Origin: Mycoplana rhizolycopersici
GTDB lineage: Bacteria > Pseudomonadota > Alphaproteobacteria > Rhizobiales > Rhizobiaceae
Length of the DNA: 64,000 nt
Direction of reading: 5' to 3'
Assembly: GCF_013378445.1 (NCBI RefSeq)
Contig: NZ_JABXYK010000002.1
Coordinates: 310,001 to 374,000, forward strand
Position numbers and translations under genes: made by a program. Within the stretch, counting starts at the first letter, position 1. The number at the start of each line of letters is the position of its first letter. Positions 56,210-64,000 of the stretch are shown here, piece after piece. The notes below the pieces were generated by a model. The model ran no database searches. It was not told the origin of the DNA and saw only the letters and a program-made list of their open reading frames with translations.

Positions 56210-58252
56210 CTATCGGTTGCGGGCTGCGTTGCGGGCGGCACGAGCCAGTGCCGCGGCGACGCGCGCGGACTGGTCATTCTCGGTCGGCTTGTCAGCCAGA
56301 GTCTTGAAGCTGTCAGCGCCCGGCATGAGCAGCTCCTCTATGTCGTGCTGTTCAGGAACAGGCGTCTTTTCGATACGATCAGCCACGGCATCCCACTCGT
56401 CATCGCCCCAATACGGAAGGCCGAGCCGGTAGGCACCGGCGAGGCTCTGGTTCAGCATGTCCATCGCCTCGTTGCGGCGGCCCTCAGAAAGGCGCCAGAC
56501 GTAGCGGGTGTGTCCGGTACGCTTTGACTTTTCCGGCACGCGGGACTCCGCCGTCGCCTGTCTGAAGAATTCGTCGCCGAGACCGCGGGCAAACTGGATG
56601 TAACCGGCCTGCGCCGGATCGTCCTTCTTGAAGTCGCGATAGAGGCGCAGTTTGAAGGCCGAGGCGTTGAACGTGTAGAAGCGCGACGTCCATTTCTGCT
56701 TCTTGCGCCGGCCCTTCTTGTCGTGCTCATGCGCCTGGGCGATGGCGGGTGCGGCATCCGAGCTGCCGCCACGCACCATGATCACCTTCGACTTTGGATG
56801 GCGGCGGACCCAGCCATAGACATCATCGGTATAGGCGTTGCCGTCGATCGCCAGAAAGTCGCAAGTGCGCTTACGTCCGGCGACATCGGGGAACTGCCGT
56901 ATCAGAAGCCGGTCAAGTTCGTCGCGGACCTGCGTTTCCGAGATATGCCCGGAATGTTCCTTGAACTCCGCAAGATGGCGACCGGCACGATTGTCGATGA
57001 CGCCGCAATCGATCACTGCGCGGTAACGGTTACGACCATAACCGACGAGGGTCCATTCGACGCGGTCGCCCTGGACGTCCACACCGATGACCAGTACGAG
57101 CGCCTCGGCGGGAATGACGCCGCGGGCAAAGCCGGTATCCTCGGCGCGGTCACGGAGCACTTCCCAGTCGACGGCCTTGTTGTCGGCTTCATAGGCAAGG
57201 CCGAGCCAGTCGTTGAAGAACGTCTGCTCTGCGCCCGATCCGTCCTCGCGCTTCTCCGGACCGCCTGCCTGCAATCCCAGATATTCGGCGGCGAGGTTCT
57301 CCCAGCGCTCGAACGGCGAATAGGCCATCCAGATCCGGAACGACCGATGCCGCCGCGCCCGCTCCGGATATTTGGCGACCCACCTGGCGCCGTTCTCCGG
57401 CTGCACCATCCACTCGCGATGATGCTCCTGGATCTCGCAGCCGCATTCGACGCATACGAAGTGCGCCTTCTCCGGGTGCGCGGGGTCGATATGGTCCCGC
57501 ATGTTCTCCCAGCGCAGATCCTGCAGGTGTCCGCAGTGGGGACAGGGAACGTGATAAGTCTCCTGCGTGCCCTCGTCGAAGTTCTGCGTGATCTTGCAGC
57601 CGGGCGACACCATCGGCGTCGAGATCTTGAAGATCTTGCCGGTGAAGAACGCCTTCGTTCGGCTGTCGGCCTGGACCTCCGGATCGCCGGCCTCATTCTT
57701 CTGCCACTTCGCCAGGTCGTCCTGGACCTGCTTGCGCGGCGAGATCATCGACAGGCCGGCGGGCGAATTGGCGCCTGCCGCCTGGATCGCGCCGCGCCCG
57801 TCGATCCGCTCCTTGTAGAGCACCTTGTTGCTGGCCTCGCGGCTGTTCGTCGAGAACAGCGCGGCAATCCGCGGCGTCTCCCGCACGAGCGGCATCAGCT
57901 TCGTTTTCGACCAGCGCGCGGCGTTCTCTTCCGTCGGATGGACGTAGAGGAAGTCGCCGGGCGTCATGTCGAGCGAGCCGAGCGTGAAGATGTTGGCGCA
58001 GATCGTGCCGCCAATCTGCGCCGACTTCGCCAGGCTGACGACGTTGCAGGGATCTTCCGGCGACAGCGCCCTCAATATCTCCGAGAAGAACGGCACCAGC
58101 CGCTCATTATACGGGCCGGCGTGGTCGGTGATGCGCTCGGAAAAGACGATGTTGTCCTTTGCCCATCGCAGATAGTCGACCGGCGGCGGTGGCTCGGTGA
58201 CCTCGGCCAACACGTCATAGACGAGCCTCGCCGGGTTATAGAGCATCGTCAT
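56210..58252 (-). CDS. Terminase large subunit (GpA family)
   Basis: A 680-residue DNA packaging motor and nuclease. The N-terminal ATPase region has NVVSLAKSAQIGGTICANIF (Walker-A-like) and the C-terminal nuclease starts near LVLVIGVDVQGDRVEWTLVG (Asp). Cys pairs in CPHCGHLQDLRWE and CVECGCEIQEHH form the zinc-binding insert typical of GpA. It overlaps TerS by four bases. GpA-type enzymes usually cut at cos sites. Confidence 0.95.
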   Translation of the reverse strand: MTMLYNPARLVYDVLAEVTEPPPPVDYLRWAKDNIVFSERITDHAGPYNERLVPFFSEILRALSPEDPCNVVSLAKSAQIGGTICANIFTLGSLDMTPGDFLYVHPTEENAARWSKTKLMPLVRETPRIAALFSTNSREASNKVLYKERIDGRGAIQAAGANSPAGLSMISPRKQVQDDLAKWQKNEAGDPEVQADSRTKAFFTGKIFKISTPMVSPGCKITQNFDEGTQETYHVPCPHCGHLQDLRWENMRDHIDPAHPEKAHFVCVECGCEIQEHHREWMVQPENGARWVAKYPERARRHRSFRIWMAYSPFERWENLAAEYLGLQAGGPEKREDGSGAEQTFFNDWLGLAYEADNKAVDWEVLRDRAEDTGFARGVIPAEALVLVIGVDVQGDRVEWTLVGYGRNRYRAVIDCGVIDNRAGRHLAEFKEHSGHISETQVRDELDRLLIRQFPDVAGRKRTCDFLAIDGNAYTDDVYGWVRRHPKSKVIMVRGGSSDAAPAIAQAHEHDKKGRRKKQKWTSRFYTFNASAFKLRLYRDFKKDDPAQAGYIQFARGLGDEFFRQATAESRVPEKSKRTGHTRYVWRLSEGRRNEAMDMLNQSLAGAYRLGLPYWGDDEWDAVADRIEKTPVPEQHDIEELLMPGADSFKTLADKPTENDQSARVAAALARAARNAARNR

Positions 58253-58929
58253 TCGGCGCCGTCCTCGTCGTCTTCAACGTGCTCGGGAAGGTCCGCCTGG
58301 CGCTTGCGGAAATCCTCCGCCGCCTTCGCGCGAACACTGCGGAAAGTTTTGAGCAACGCATGCTGCACGTCGTGCTGGGGAATGCCGAACTGCGCGGCCA
58401 TGACCTTCGCCATCTCGCCAATCCCCATTTCCATGACCTTGAACGCCTCGGCCGCGACCCGTCCCATCTCCCGGCGCGCGACCTCGGCAAGCATGTAGCG
58501 GCCGATTTCGAGCATCTCCTCGCGCTCGGCCTTTTCGGTCGCGATCCGCTCGCGACGAAGGCGGAGCTGGGCCAGCTCGTCCTGCGTCGGATCGGTCGGC
58601 GCCGGGGGCAGCGTTGGCGCCGACACCTGCTTCCGATCGGGCTCGCGCCGTTCTGTCGGTGGGGCCTGCGGTTCCGCCGTGCGATCGGCCGGCATCGCAT
58701 CAGCACTCAGGGCAGCCGCACCGTTCGCACCGAAACGCTGGCTGGGGTCGAGGAACCGGCGAAGCTGCTGCTTGGCAACCTCGGCCCGGATCTTCGCATA
58801 GCGCCCGGCGCCCTCGATCGCGTCGCCGCTGATCTGGCCCTCGGCGATGTACTGAGAGACGCGCCCTGGCGAAACGCCGATATGGGCCGCGAACTCGCCC
58901 TTGCTCATCGCCACCGCAGTGCCGTCCAT
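58249..58929 (-). CDS. Terminase small subunit-like protein (Nu1 type)
   Basis: A 226-residue protein. A helix-turn-helix is seen at the N-terminus (SKGEFAAHIGVSPGRVSQYI, residues 9-28) followed by a wing (EGAGRYAKIRAEVAKQQL). The rest is helical and ends in an acidic tail (EHVEDDEDGAE) that would bind TerL, as in Nu1. The start may also be the ATG at 58908. CTAAAG repeats lie immediately upstream and are candidate binding sites. Confidence 0.85.
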   Translation of the reverse strand: MDGTAVAMSKGEFAAHIGVSPGRVSQYIAEGQISGDAIEGAGRYAKIRAEVAKQQLRRFLDPSQRFGANGAAALSADAMPADRTAEPQAPPTERREPDRKQVSAPTLPPAPTDPTQDELAQLRLRRERIATEKAEREEMLEIGRYMLAEVARREMGRVAAEAFKVMEMGIGEMAKVMAAQFGIPQHDVQHALLKTFRSVRAKAAEDFRKRQADLPEHVEDDEDGAE

Positions 58930-59924: not shown

Positions 59925-60125
59925 CTGAACCTGATCTAACGTGCTGACTATCTGTCAACTTCCAAACGCGGGCAACACCTTTTTGAAGTTGTCGAATTAG
60001 CTATATGTCTCAGTGCCTTAGATGCATTTGCATCTGGCTTGTGGAGCTTGCTTTCAAAAATACTCGCTGATAGGTTGAACCATGAATTGTCTGGGGTGTG
60101 GAACTAGGCATCAGGGGAATGATTG

Positions 60126-61325
60126 ATGGTAAACATATACGTGAACAAAGGCTTTCCATTCGGTCTGCATAGATTTCAAATGTTTGGCGGATTATTTAGT
60201 CCTTACGTTGATCATGCTCTCGGGAAAAACAGCTTTCGTTCGCATGACTATTGGGGTGAATACAAGACTTTCGATATAAAGGGGACTGGATTTAGATACA
60301 CCGAAAGTGGAAATAAATTCAAATCCGGAACTATTACAGATATTGTCGTTTTTGATCCAAATGGTAAAGTAAATAGTTCACTTTCTGTTTCACCGTCAGA
60401 GAAATTATTTTCTATAAAAGGACTATCTTTAAAATCAAAGGAGTTAGTCAAATTTATCGATAATGAGAATGTATACCAATACGGTAAGTATGACAAGTAC
60501 TACGTTATCTTTGAGAAGAATGTTTTTAAAGGGAGGGATTTGTTCAGAGGTGGCAATCTTGCAGATGAAGTTAACCTGCAAGATGGGGACGATGTTGCTT
60601 ACGGGTATGGGGGAGATGATATTTTATCTGCTTCTTCGGGTAGAGATATACTATATGGCGGCGATGGGAACGATCAACTTGATGGTGGGGCAGGGAAAGA
60701 TTTTGCATACGGTGGCAAGGGTGACGACACCTTGTTGTTGGGGCCTGGGAATGATGTGGGGTATGGAGGCAGTGGCGCCGACGGATTAAACGGTCAACAT
60801 GGTAATGACAGACTTTATGGCGATCGTGGGAATGATCTTCTGGAGGGGCACAACGGGAACGATACCCTTTATGGTGGCAGCGGAAGCGATACGCTGAGAG
60901 GGGATCGAGGCAACGATAAATTGGTCGGTGGTACCGGTGCGGACTCTCTTGTTGGGGGCGAGGGAAGAGATACATTTATCTTCACCTCTGTGAAAGATTC
61001 CTTTTACAGTAAAAAGCTCGCCCATAAATTTCTGCTCATTGACAAAAACGGTGACCAGCTCCAGGGCTTTGATTGGATTGAAGACTTCTCTAAAGGTGAC
61101 AAGATAGACCTGAGAGCAATCGACGCGAATATTCATACGCCCAAGAATAACAAATTCACTTGGATAGGCGAATCGGAGTTCAGTGGTGCGGCTGGAGAGC
61201 TTCGCTTCCAAGGTTATCATGGCCCCGGAATATTGTTCGAAGGCGACACGAACGGCGATAAGATTGCAGATATTGCGGTGGCTCTAAGGGGCTACAAACC
61301 AGTCGTCGAAGACTTCTTCCTTTGA
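60126..61325 (+). CDS. RTX calcium-binding protein, AT-rich insertion in the prophage
   Basis: A 399-residue protein read opposite to the phage genes. The first 140 residues are of unknown type, Lys/Phe/Tyr-rich (MVNIYVNKGFPFGLHRFQMF). Residues about 145-295 hold RTX units ([20 protein letters not shown]). The C-terminal M10-type domain follows (WIEDFSKGDKIDLRAIDANI, ending VEDFFL). Codon use is much AT-richer than its neighbours, a sign of recent transfer. No signal peptide, so type I secretion is expected. It is very likely a cargo (moron) gene, expressed in the lysogen from its own promoter. The 220 bases after it hold nothing recognised. Confidence 0.88.
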   Translation: MVNIYVNKGFPFGLHRFQMFGGLFSPYVDHALGKNSFRSHDYWGEYKTFDIKGTGFRYTESGNKFKSGTITDIVVFDPNGKVNSSLSVSPSEKLFSIKGLSLKSKELVKFIDNENVYQYGKYDKYYVIFEKNVFKGRDLFRGGNLADEVNLQDGDDVAYGYGGDDILSASSGRDILYGGDGNDQLDGGAGKDFAYGGKGDDTLLLGPGNDVGYGGSGADGLNGQHGNDRLYGDRGNDLLEGHNGNDTLYGGSGSDTLRGDRGNDKLVGGTGADSLVGGEGRDTFIFTSVKDSFYSKKLAHKFLLIDKNGDQLQGFDWIEDFSKGDKIDLRAIDANIHTPKNNKFTWIGESEFSGAAGELRFQGYHGPGILFEGDTNGDKIADIAVALRGYKPVVEDFFL

Positions 61326-61546: not shown

Positions 61547-62338
61547 CTAAGGGTTTGGTGACGGTGGGAACCTTGACTGGTTGCAGCCAATCCACGGCCT
61601 GCGAGCGGGAAAGAAGGTGGAAAGTGAATGGCTTTCCAAGTTGTTCTTTAATTCCATGTGCAGGGCTACCAGCGCATCCTGCCAAAGCTGCCAGTCGAGC
61701 CGGGAGAGAATGTCACCGCGCAGCGAACGGTCCAGCTTCCACTTCCGATAGGCGCCCTTGACGGGACGATGGCGGCGCTGGTCGAAGCCGTTGTCGGTAT
61801 AGGTGTAAACGCGCCCGAGCCTGTCCTTTGCCTTCCTGTCAATGAACCACATCGCGCGCCCATTCACATCGAGCATCGGCCGGGCCACTGGCTCAGACGC
61901 GTCCCAGGACGGCCCACGGCCCAGCATGGCGGCGCTGATGACTAGGTTAACCACGTGCCTGCCGTTCAGCCTGTCGCTTCGGCTGCGCTGTTCCTCGGCA
62001 ATCCGATCCACCTCAGCGCGGATCAGCCCATACGGATCCTGCCATTCGGGGAAGGGGTTCCAGCCGTGCGCGATCTCGAAGCCTTCGCGGCTCGCCAGCG
62101 CGCGCACCGCGTCACCGACGAGCACCGCATCGGATGCCGGCTCGCCCTCATAGATGTAGCTAGGGATCGTGCCGTAGGCGTTCGGGCTACGGTCGATCAT
62201 GGTGCCGAGTGCGGCGATCTCGACGATCGCATTCCAGCTCGATCCCGCGACGACAGAGCCGCCCCCACCAGCGCCGATCTTCGGCAGCTCGTGCACGAAA
62301 GCCCAGGTCAGAAGCTTTTCGATCGTGATTTTCTTCAT
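61547..62338 (-). CDS. Conserved phage protein of unknown function
   Basis: A 263-residue protein (MKKITIEKLLTWAFVHELPK, VVNLVISAAMLGRGPSWDAS, FIDRKAKDRLGRVYTYTDNG). No signal or membrane segment. Its position after the primase gene and the repeat array suggests a role in replication, recombination or its control, but no motif proves it. I believe similar proteins occur in other rhizobial prophages. Confidence 0.75.
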   Translation of the reverse strand: MKKITIEKLLTWAFVHELPKIGAGGGGSVVAGSSWNAIVEIAALGTMIDRSPNAYGTIPSYIYEGEPASDAVLVGDAVRALASREGFEIAHGWNPFPEWQDPYGLIRAEVDRIAEEQRSRSDRLNGRHVVNLVISAAMLGRGPSWDASEPVARPMLDVNGRAMWFIDRKAKDRLGRVYTYTDNGFDQRRHRPVKGAYRKWKLDRSLRGDILSRLDWQLWQDALVALHMELKNNLESHSLSTFFPARRPWIGCNQSRFPPSPNP

Positions 62339-62349
62339 CTTTCCCTCTT

Positions 62350-62594
62350 CTGACCAGTTATGACCAGTTTCTGACCAGTCGAATGAATAGTTTTATCTCT
62401 ATGTTTCATATGCTTGGACCAGTTTGACCAGTTCAAGCGTCTCTACCTATGTCCATTCCCTCCACACCTCCCCATCCTCATATGTATAGACACGCGCAAA
62501 CTCGTCAGAACTCGTCAGCCCTATTGATTTCATTGTCTTTTCCATCACCTTGAAGTGGTCAGGCACTCGTCAGCAACACGTCAGAACTGGTCAG
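62350..62594. repeat. Eleven-copy two-orientation repeat array, candidate phage origin
   Basis: The gap between the primase gene and the next gene holds TGACCAGT at 62351, 62361, 62372 and 62425, with one GGACCAGT at 62416. Its reverse-complement form ACTsGTCA follows in AACTCGTCAG (62499, 62509, in perfect tandem), AAGTGGTCAG (62553), CACTCGTCAG (62564), AACACGTCAG (62575) and AACTGGTCAG (62585). Spacing within groups is 9-11 bases, one helical turn. An AT-richer section (62380-62415, 62520-62550) separates the groups. This looks like an iteron-type replication origin or a strong operator. Confidence 0.72.
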
Positions 62595-62626: not shown

Positions 62627-64000
62627 TCACCGGTCCGGAAATTCGTCGGGAAACGGCGCATCGGGATCAAAGCGGCCCTCAGGCGGATCGGAAGGCGAGG
62701 CGCGCGCAGGCACGTTCGAAAGCCTGATGCCGATATAGACGACGCCGGTATCCGTTCGCTCCTTCGAGAACTTCTTGCCCATGATGCGCCCGAAGCTGGT
62801 CACGTTCATGGGTTTCCCGCCCTGGTCGATCGTGTCGTCGCAATAGGCCTGGTAGAGCACCTTGCCCTGCAAGGGCGGCGCGTTCGCATCCCTGATGACG
62901 CAACGACCAACGAAACCCGCTGTTCGGTCCATGTCGTCGCGATACTCCTGCGTGGCTCGCTCGACGGCCTCGGGGATGATCAGGCCCTCCCGAAGGAAGA
63001 TGTGAACCCCCTCGATCAGCCAGTTGAGGATACCCGGATATTCGGGCTCGAACGACGAGACGATCTCCTCGAACTCTCGCCTGTCCTCCTTGGCGATCTT
63101 GTTCGGCCAATGGATCACGGCCATTCGCCGCCAGATGCCGTCGTCCGTGCCAGTGATCCGCGGATAACCATTGCCGCTCATGATGGCGATGAAGATGGGC
63201 AGGAAGTCGGTATAGCCTGAGAAGAGGTCGCGCGCGGTGATCATCTCGCCACCCGTCAGTTCTTTCACGAGGTTCTCGCGCAGATCCTCGCCCTCCGGCA
63301 GCTCCTTGACGCGCAGCAGGCGCTTTCCGAGCAATCGGGCAAGGTCGGGGCTCGCGCTGCCCGAGGATCCGCCTTCGCCGATCAGGCTGGTAGCAGGCAA
63401 CGTCACCGCCGCCTCGCCAAGCAAGCGGCAGAGCGTTTCCATGTAGACGGACTTGCCATTGGCACCGTCACCATAGTGGAAGAACAGATACTGCACCGTG
63501 ATCCCCAGCAGCCCCAGGCCCGAACTGACTTGCACCAGGCGGCGCACGGCCGGATCGGGCAACTTGCTGTCTATGAAGGCCATCCACTTCGGGCACTTCG
63601 CGCCGGGCTTGTAGCGCACCGGAATGATGTGGGTGATCATGTCCTGCCGGCGATGACCGGGGATCACCTCCAGCGTCGAATCGATACACGCTTCGATGAA
63701 CTCGGGCGCATCTGGCGTCTCCGCCGTGCTCTTGTGGCGCGGGTTGCGCCTGCGCTCGGTCTTGCGGCCAAAGCGCAGGGTCGCATTCTCCACGGCCACC
63801 ATCATCCGATCGGTATTGAAGTCATTCGGATCGCGCATGATGTGCGGCGCGGCGCATTCCAGCGCTGCGTTCATCTTCGCCACGTTCTTCGAGGTGACAG
63901 CATGATCAAGGCGCCGCTTGACGCGTTTGCCATGAGATTCCTTCGCCTTGAGGGCTTCCGTCGCGAGTCGTTTCTCGATCGGGCCGCGCTCTTCCTCCGA
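62627..64000 (-). CDS. P4/D5-type phage primase-helicase, N-terminus outside the window
   Basis: A superfamily 3 helicase of the P4 alpha/D5 family that would unwind and prime phage DNA. The frame is open to base 64000 without a stop, so the 458 visible residues are the C-terminal part and the primase part lies beyond the edge. Seen are the Walker A FHYGDGANGKSVYMETL, Walker-B region GKRLLRVKELPEGEDL, the sensor DFLPIFIAIMSGNGYPRI and DDGIWRRMAVIHWP, followed by a C-terminal winged-helix-like part (NVTSFGRIMGKKFSKERT). The repeat array starts 33 bases after its stop. Confidence 0.93.
   Translation of the reverse strand, partial: SEEERGPIEKRLATEALKAKESHGKRVKRRLDHAVTSKNVAKMNAALECAAPHIMRDPNDFNTDRMMVAVENATLRFGRKTERRRNPRHKSTAETPDAPEFIEACIDSTLEVIPGHRRQDMITHIIPVRYKPGAKCPKWMAFIDSKLPDPAVRRLVQVSSGLGLLGITVQYLFFHYGDGANGKSVYMETLCRLLGEAAVTLPATSLIGEGGSSGSASPDLARLLGKRLLRVKELPEGEDLRENLVKELTGGEMITARDLFSGYTDFLPIFIAIMSGNGYPRITGTDDGIWRRMAVIHWPNKIAKEDRREFEEIVSSFEPEYPGILNWLIEGVHIFLREGLIIPEAVERATQEYRDDMDRTAGFVGRCVIRDANAPPLQGKVLYQAYCDDTIDQGGKPMNVTSFGRIMGKKFSKERTDTGVVYIGIRLSNVPARASPSDPPEGRFDPDAPFPDEFPDR

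Follow-up and report, generated by a model that had tools for sequence, protein, structure and literature searches.

Results

Genes and repeats at the locus

The window (the whole 64,000-nucleotide stretch that we analysed) ends within a gene for a D5_N/SF3-type helicase, the 3' part of which lies at 62627..64000 on the minus strand. The protein comprises 604 aa in all, with its start past the end of the window. At full length it matches PF08706 (D5_N, E 8e-13), and its in-window part matches phrog_1156, DNA primase (E 8e-111). The next gene on this strand, after an array of repeats, encodes a 263-aa protein of the phrog_9306 family (61547..62338, minus strand, E 6e-71), for which we found no convincing Pfam match. 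Farther along on the same strand are a minor-tail/neck-like gene, a small terminase gene (58249-58929, downstream of the helicase and ~3.4 kb from the array; phrog_57, E 4.5e-24), and genes that a family search matched to large terminase (3.9e-179), portal (1.4e-127) and head maturation protease (1.6e-97). Since terminase, portal and head maturation protease genes adjoin, we regard the element as a tailed-phage prophage. The element as a whole does not fit a PICI or phage satellite, as it has packaging and head genes of its own beside the putative origin.

The gene upstream of the helicase lies outside the window and was read in locus L003, where it matches Zn_Ribbon_Prim and DUF7146, with Toprim_3 below its cut-off; a phage-repressor-like gene is found beyond the helicase in the same locus. 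These matches of the upstream gene suggest that primase-like and helicase functions are divided between two proteins. An earlier note on this DNA had described the neighbour of the array as a D5/P4-type primase-helicase. The D5_N helicase is indeed present, while the primase part of that description seems to belong to the separate upstream gene. We also note a 400-aa RTX/serralysin-C-like protein encoded at 60123-61325 on the plus strand (PF00353, E 8e-36; PF08548). Its gene lies between phrog_9306 and the tail and packaging genes on the strand opposite to its phage neighbours and looks like carried cargo.

The intergenic region between helicase and phrog_9306 genes is 288 bp long with a GC content of 47.9%, compared with 62% in the genes on either side. 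Within it 243 bp hold 11 copies of an 8-bp word, five on the plus and six on the minus strand, each at most one mismatch from TGACSAGT. The array starts 33 bp past the last base of the helicase gene, and the phrog_9306 gene starts 12 bp beyond the last site. The arm on the phrog_9306 side is made of plus-strand sites, with three outer copies of TGACCAGT (62351..62358, 62361..62368 and 62372..62379), an AT-rich segment (62380..62415, AT 0.72), and an inner pair consisting of GGACCAGT (62416..62423) and TGACCAGT (62425..62432). A central spacer of 67 bp (62433..62499, AT 0.49) separates this arm from the other and contains, on the minus strand, a G-rich purine tract GAGGATGGGGAGGTGTGGAGGG (62458..62479) and, at its helicase-side end, a 10-bp alternating purine-pyrimidine tract TATACATATG (62479..62488). 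The helicase-side arm is made of minus-strand sites, with an inner pair of TGACGAGT (62500..62507 and 62510..62517), an AT-richer segment (62518..62553, AT 0.61), and four outer sites that read TGACCACT (62554..62561), TGACGAGT (62565..62572), TGACGTGT (62576..62583) and TGACCAGT (62586..62593). We write the consensus as TGAC[C/G]AGT because the plus-strand sites include GGACCAGT and the minus-strand sites comprise TGACGAGT three times, TGACCACT, TGACGTGT and TGACCAGT.

Start-to-start steps in coordinate order are 10, 11, 44, 9, 75, 10, 44, 11, 11 and 10 bp, so that sites within a group follow one another at helical spacing (9–11 bp). Each arm thus consists of an outer group of three or four sites and an inner pair 44 bp apart, and the two arms are mirrored about the 67-bp centre. 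Read on the helicase strand, four outer and two inner forward sites are followed by the centre and then by two inner and three outer reversed sites. Around the array GC skew shows no clear switch.

The 11 TGACSAGT-like sites of the intergenic region compare with a mean of 0.63 and a maximum of 5 in 3000 dinucleotide shuffles, and the eight exact TGACSAGT matches with a mean of 0.03 and a maximum of 2. A test blind to the word found a best 8-mer with 10 copies, against 3.5 (maximum 5) in 150 shuffles. Elsewhere in the window, scanned in 245-bp stretches at 5-bp steps, there are never more than two TGACSAGT-like sites. These data bear out most of what the earlier note had read from the letters, namely eleven copies, five one way and six the other, in about 245 bases, steps of 9–11 bases inside groups (measured as 9, 10 and 11 bp), and AT-richer DNA between the groups. 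It had further described a single word together with its reverse complement. The two orientations hold, whereas the uniform word does not, exact TGACCAGT occurring only five times in the array.

Relatives keep the layout and change the word

The same genome carries a second prophage in which a primase-like gene, helicase, array, phrog_9306, small and large terminase and portal follow in the same order. Its array has a similar plan, with GGACA-type (GGACAG-type) words first and TGTCC-type words past the centre. At the same position in related genomes we observed the words TTGCACCAGT, GCGAGGGT, AGGGACG and others; one locus, L006, has no evident array.

Helicase loci were gathered from viral contigs and genomes, two of the source lists being the best 80 matches. 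From 216 loci with a helicase match we obtained 177 helicase ORFs, with 40 duplicates dropped and with a closed 3' end, at least 200 bp downstream, a score of at least 100 and unique last 150 residues required; this set still includes near-identical copies and a few fragmentary ORFs (e.g. L040 and L080). An array was called when, within 600 bp of the helicase stop on its 3' side, the best 8-mer scored at least 2 above the maximum of 10 shuffles. By this rule 119 of the 177 loci have an array and 58 do not, and at a margin of at least 1 the number with an array rises to 137. All but one of the 119 arrays (118/119) have at least two sites in each orientation. Control regions under the same rule gave 4/165 (1.5–2.1 kb further on), 3/159 (upstream of the helicase) and 5/176 (inside the helicase gene), and 19/165, 21/159 and 14/176, respectively, at a margin of at least 1.

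Single linkage groups the words of these arrays into 13 clusters at a distance of 0.25, 18 at 0.15 and 5 at 0.35. Architecture is conserved among relatives and the word is not. The expectation that an array would be found beside homologous helicases therefore holds for 119 of 177 loci, but mostly with words other than the original one. A search of relatives for TGACCAGT is misleading because most of them use other words, and TGACCAGT as a conserved feature was rejected, as most relatives carry other words at the same place.

Of the 177 loci, 134 have a same-strand phrog_9306-like gene no more than 3.2 kb away, as do 97 of the 119 array loci. For the remaining 22 of 119 arrays no same-strand phrog_9306-like gene was found in the 3.2 kb examined, some loci being shorter than this. 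As a separate observation, seven loci (L119, L123, L128, L151, L213, L215 and L221) have a different-looking helicase C-terminus and no array under our test; four of them come from genome records of Qipengyuania, Novosphingobium, Erythrobacter and an Erythrobacteraceae MAG.

Geometry and centre of the arrays

The 119 arrays comprise 832 steps between successive sites on the same strand; 341 of these measure 9 bp, and 428 fall within 9–11 bp. Only 61 of the 119 arrays divide cleanly into two blocks with no more than one site facing the wrong way. In these 61 an arm of five to six sites is found on the left in 42, on the right in 45 and on both sides in 31, with 6+6 the commonest pair of arms (10/61). 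Mirror symmetry of the arms averages 0.73 compared with 0.63 when steps are reordered (41 non-redundant arrays, p 2e-6). Arms of 9-21-67-9-9 bp recur within 2 bp in L099, L165 and L182, which share the word GGGAGGAT, and in L207, which has the word CGGCCCGAA.

We analysed the centres of 54 non-redundant arrays out of 71 usable ones. The longest alternating purine-pyrimidine run averages 12.2 in these centres, compared with 6.9 in shuffles and 6.4 beyond the array. Runs of at least 9 are present in 44 of the 54 centres (shuffle mean 9.3, maximum 15) and begin at a median of 14% of the spacer, beside the helicase-side arm. Of the 54 centres, 29 have the pattern GGG-n(0-6)-GGG on the helicase strand (shuffle mean 13.3, maximum 21), and 1 has its C-rich form. 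Over the 54 loci the AT content is 0.485 in the centre, 0.517 in the gaps between outer and inner sites and 0.362 beyond the array.

Covariation of the word with the helicase C-terminus

We presume that the helicase C-terminus (residues 507-574, 62720..62923, minus strand) forms a winged helix. The assignment draws on family matches in relatives: a Pfam scan of the C-termini of 45 diverse relatives from the 119 gave Pox_D5 in 17 and RFX_DNA_binding in 3. The window's own helicase C-terminus matched no Pfam model in the winged-helix region. A PDB profile search with the C-terminal alignment returned four weak matches, all named primases (best E 0.0087). Within this region we place a putative recognition helix NVTSFGRIMGKKF at residues 546-558 (62768..62806, minus strand) and a putative wing loop at residues 560-567 (62741..62764, minus strand).

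Over all 119 arrays, word distance shows a rank correlation of 0.56 with distance in the ATPase region and 0.50 with distance in the winged helix, both beyond 500 permutations. The partial rank correlation is higher for the ATPase region (0.33) than for the winged helix (0.15), and discordant triples also lean to the ATPase region (5402 vs 4232 at a margin of 0.05; 227 vs 141 at 0.1). Global tests of covariation (partial Mantel, discordant triples) thus give the winged helix no special place. Nearest neighbours, in contrast, favour it: word distance is 0.142 to the locus closest by winged helix and 0.191 to that closest by ATPase, compared with 0.526 for all pairs.

A different picture emerges among close relatives. 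In 508 pairs with an ATPase distance below 0.2, which are not independent and are drawn from the 97 array loci with a phrog_9306-like gene, word distance correlates more strongly with the winged helix (rho 0.72) than with the ATPase region (0.41) and phrog_9306 (0.45). In the 0.1–0.2 bin of ATPase distance the values are 0.59, 0.06 and 0.24, respectively. At ATPase distances of 0.5–0.8 the advantage of the winged helix is gone (0.15, with ATPase 0.19 and phrog_9306 -0.09). The pair L035 and L036 differs by 3% in the ATPase region, by 31% in the winged helix and by 25% in phrog_9306, and has the words GCGATAGTT and TTGGAGGGTT.

We then scanned 399 helicase columns over 1454 pairs, with word distance corrected for ATPase distance. 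The columns most strongly associated with the word are 564, 560, 562 and 566, which lie in the presumed wing, followed by 546 at the start of the presumed recognition helix. In within-cluster permutations all five top columns fell in the winged-helix region in 0/200, and the observed contrast was likewise reached in 0/200. Close behind 546 (0.37) rank two columns that lie elsewhere than in the winged helix, 184 (0.36) and 113 (0.35); both likewise pass the permutation 95% level for the best column, which is 0.33. The result differs among clusters. The top columns are 562, 560 and 564 in a 41-member cluster, and 564, then 539, 162 and 546 in a 35-member cluster. In the window's own 32-member cluster column 206 leads, followed by 512 (inside the winged-helix region), 411 and 228, with 552, 561 and 564 in fifth to seventh place, and here the residue-level signal is weak. 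Collectively the word covaries in part with residues of the helicase wing.

Beside these tests we noted that L177 and L178, the record names of which share one source number, have near-identical winged helices but different words, TTCAGGCCC and TTCGGGCCG; a recent re-coding is possible.

Isolated phages

We applied the same array rule, with 20 shuffles, to a sample of phage records consisting of 12 hand-picked from the 30 matches listed of 921 with a helicase match. Eight of the 12 pass it: Pseudanabaena Pan4, Aurantimonas AmM-1, Rhodobacter RcapNL, Paracoccus Pthi1, Methanoculleus L4768, Synechococcus Yong805-1, Enterococcus 4995_2 and Dinoroseobacter R4C, the last of which looks like GC-rich low complexity. 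None was called in Rhizobium RR1-A, Staphylococcus IME1365_01 or Microbacterium MiGM15, and Streptomyces Dubu was left out because the region taken there spans only 80 bases. No origin is marked in the annotated phage regions that we examined. In Rhodobacter phage RcapNL (L229, 3653-3973) the array extends with its last sites as far as the annotated 3' cohesive end, which suggests that origin and cos may adjoin.

Discussion

The array is most likely an origin of replication, or an essential part of one, that is read by the neighbouring helicase. More specifically, we consider it highly probable from the sequence comparisons that it serves as replication origin for a tailed phage that has become a prophage and is recognised there by the phage's own D5-type helicase. 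The earlier note had suggested an origin from the position of the array, and comparison supports this, in that 119 of 177 helicase loci have a repeated word 3' of the helicase compared with ~2–3% of control regions. Further support comes from P4, from SaPI/PICI Rep and from SCCmec Cch2, where repeats 3' of the helicase are an origin or an origin-like binding site, and from the association of the word with the presumed DNA-binding wing, which is the strongest one although not in every test.

We propose that the C-terminal winged helix of the helicase would bind each 8–10 bp word and that the five to six words per arm, set on helical turns, would gather one hexamer, as the counts of sites per arm suggest. 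With the arms pointing in opposite directions, the two hexamers so loaded would face one another. These hexamers may then melt the AT-richer tracts, the centre with its alternating purine-pyrimidine tract, or both, after which the separate primase-like protein encoded upstream would prime.

The best reading by analogy is that the origin belongs to the P4/SaPI/PICI kind, that is, an iteron origin 3' of a self-loading helicase. In the P4 record, 8-bp repeats of either orientation carry the annotation "ori type 1 repeats", with crr directly 3' of alpha and ori elsewhere. As in the window, these repeats run both ways, neighbours are often 9–11 bp apart, and crr lies 3' of the helicase gene. Among the 11 P4 repeats that we compared, five contain TGAACAGT, one base off TGACCAGT. 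The portions of PMC4234260 used here describe alpha as binding its repeats via a winged helix. P4 differs in being a satellite with two separate sites and with primase and helicase in a single protein, whereas here there is a separate primase-like gene and one compact two-arm array, and most relatives studied here have words quite different from those of P4. Our automatic 8-mer count yielded no iterons in the downstream regions of P4 and BIP-1, and the P4 repeats are taken from the record's annotation.

SaPI and PICI origins resemble the window array in lying directly 3' of rep and in being recognised by the Rep C-terminal domain, according to the sections of PMC7581432 and PMC6092414 that we drew on; for SaPI Rep the former describes an iteron origin directly downstream of the helicase gene, and the latter includes a plasmid maintenance test for a PICI. 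Those elements are satellite islands, however, while the arrays described here belong to tailed phages and prophages with their own packaging genes. Also unlike in SaPIs and PICIs, the centre in the window is only moderately AT-rich (0.49), with the AT-richer DNA between outer and inner sites, and centres here have an alternating purine-pyrimidine tract and often a G-rich tract. Cch2 of SCCmec is likewise of the D5_N type with repeats 3' of its gene, and its isolated C-terminal domain binds a putative origin just downstream (PMC7581432, in part). It has only three iterons, without a two-arm array of five to six sites.

The mechanism is of a type already known. What looks new is that tailed phages and prophages have it, that the geometry is kept while the word changes, and that there is covariation with the wing and a central tract. 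A 2018 paper states in the text consulted that the organisation is common to PICIs and to "no other known bacterial replicon" (PMC6092414), a claim that the tailed phages and prophages described here appear to contradict. Among the papers that our literature searches listed, we noticed none describing such an array in these phages.

Other functions for the array have to be weighed against this origin. The earlier note offered an operator for an unseen repressor as its alternative. We weighed an operator for a repressor, or for the phrog_9306 protein itself, that regulates the phrog_9306 gene. It would account for the outer sites on the phrog_9306 side falling in the phrog_9306 leader and for the presence of a phrog_9306-like gene within 3.2 kb in 97 of 119 array loci. 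Yet the 22 arrays for which none was found on the same strand (some loci holding less than 3.2 kb) weaken this idea and make the phrog_9306 protein an unlikely reader. In close pairs the word tracks phrog_9306 (0.45) less well than the helicase winged helix (0.72), and the strongest column associations, in a scan that covered helicase columns, lie in the helicase wing. A mirrored layout of 5-6 + 5-6 sites about a conserved centre would, moreover, be unusual for an operator. We therefore regard an operator as very unlikely, with autoregulation through helicase binding being possible. Chance, or an artefact of repeat expansion without function, has a negligible probability. Short words can recur in low-complexity DNA and 2–3% of control regions pass the array test, but shuffles and controls speak against it, as do the arrays at 119 of 177 loci, which are related in geometry and differ in word.

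Two further functions concern the phage DNA itself. With a small terminase gene downstream on the same strand and with the sites of RcapNL running up to the annotated 3' cohesive end, the array could be a packaging (cosB-like) site read by the small terminase. This is highly improbable given that the word is most associated with the helicase wing and that the P4 crr repeats, which are annotated as cis-required for replication, have the same position and style. P4 at the same time provides the precedent for a cis-required or incompatibility site that is not the start point itself, as it has crr plus a distant ori made from the same type 1 repeats. We consider such a site very unlikely at this locus, where there is no second word cluster in the window (at most two sites per 245 bp, the prophage extending past the window) and where the AT-richer tracts and conserved centre suggest melting at the array. 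PICI and SaPI origins 3' of rep are, in addition, described as the origin itself in the parts of PMC7581432 and PMC6092414 cited above.

Returning to the helicase-read origin, we tentatively suggest a wider generalisation, which we hold as a possibility somewhat short of likely. Tailed phages and prophages of Alphaproteobacteria, and probably phages of other bacteria and of a methanogen, may share a P4/PICI-type two-hexamer origin in which geometry is held within groups while the word is repeatedly re-coded via a few wing residues. Co-resident origins would then be mutually blind, a Z-DNA-prone tract inside one arm would mark the site of strand opening, and the 119 natural protein-word pairs, many of them closely related, could make the code readable. 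If the covariation holds, natural helicase-word pairs make the origin specificity of D5 helicases directly testable, and likewise the way in which prophages that share a genome keep from firing one another's origins. For many tailed phages, a large group, the arrays supply a specific candidate origin that can be put to the test.

A final comparison concerns Bordetella phage BIP-1 and pRN1, for which a stem-loop origin 3' of the rep gene has been proposed (PMC4234260, in the passages used here). Both resemble the window locus in having a putative origin 3' of an SF3 helicase gene with a winged helix; pRN1 differs in that its origin is described as a stem-loop without iterons. BIP-1 (L224) does not pass our copy-number test, with 5 copies against a shuffle maximum of 6. 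By eye, the sequence 3' of its replication gene shows a 9-bp unit twice in direct and twice in inverted orientation, which suggests that the proposed stem-loop may be a small 2+2 two-arm iteron array.
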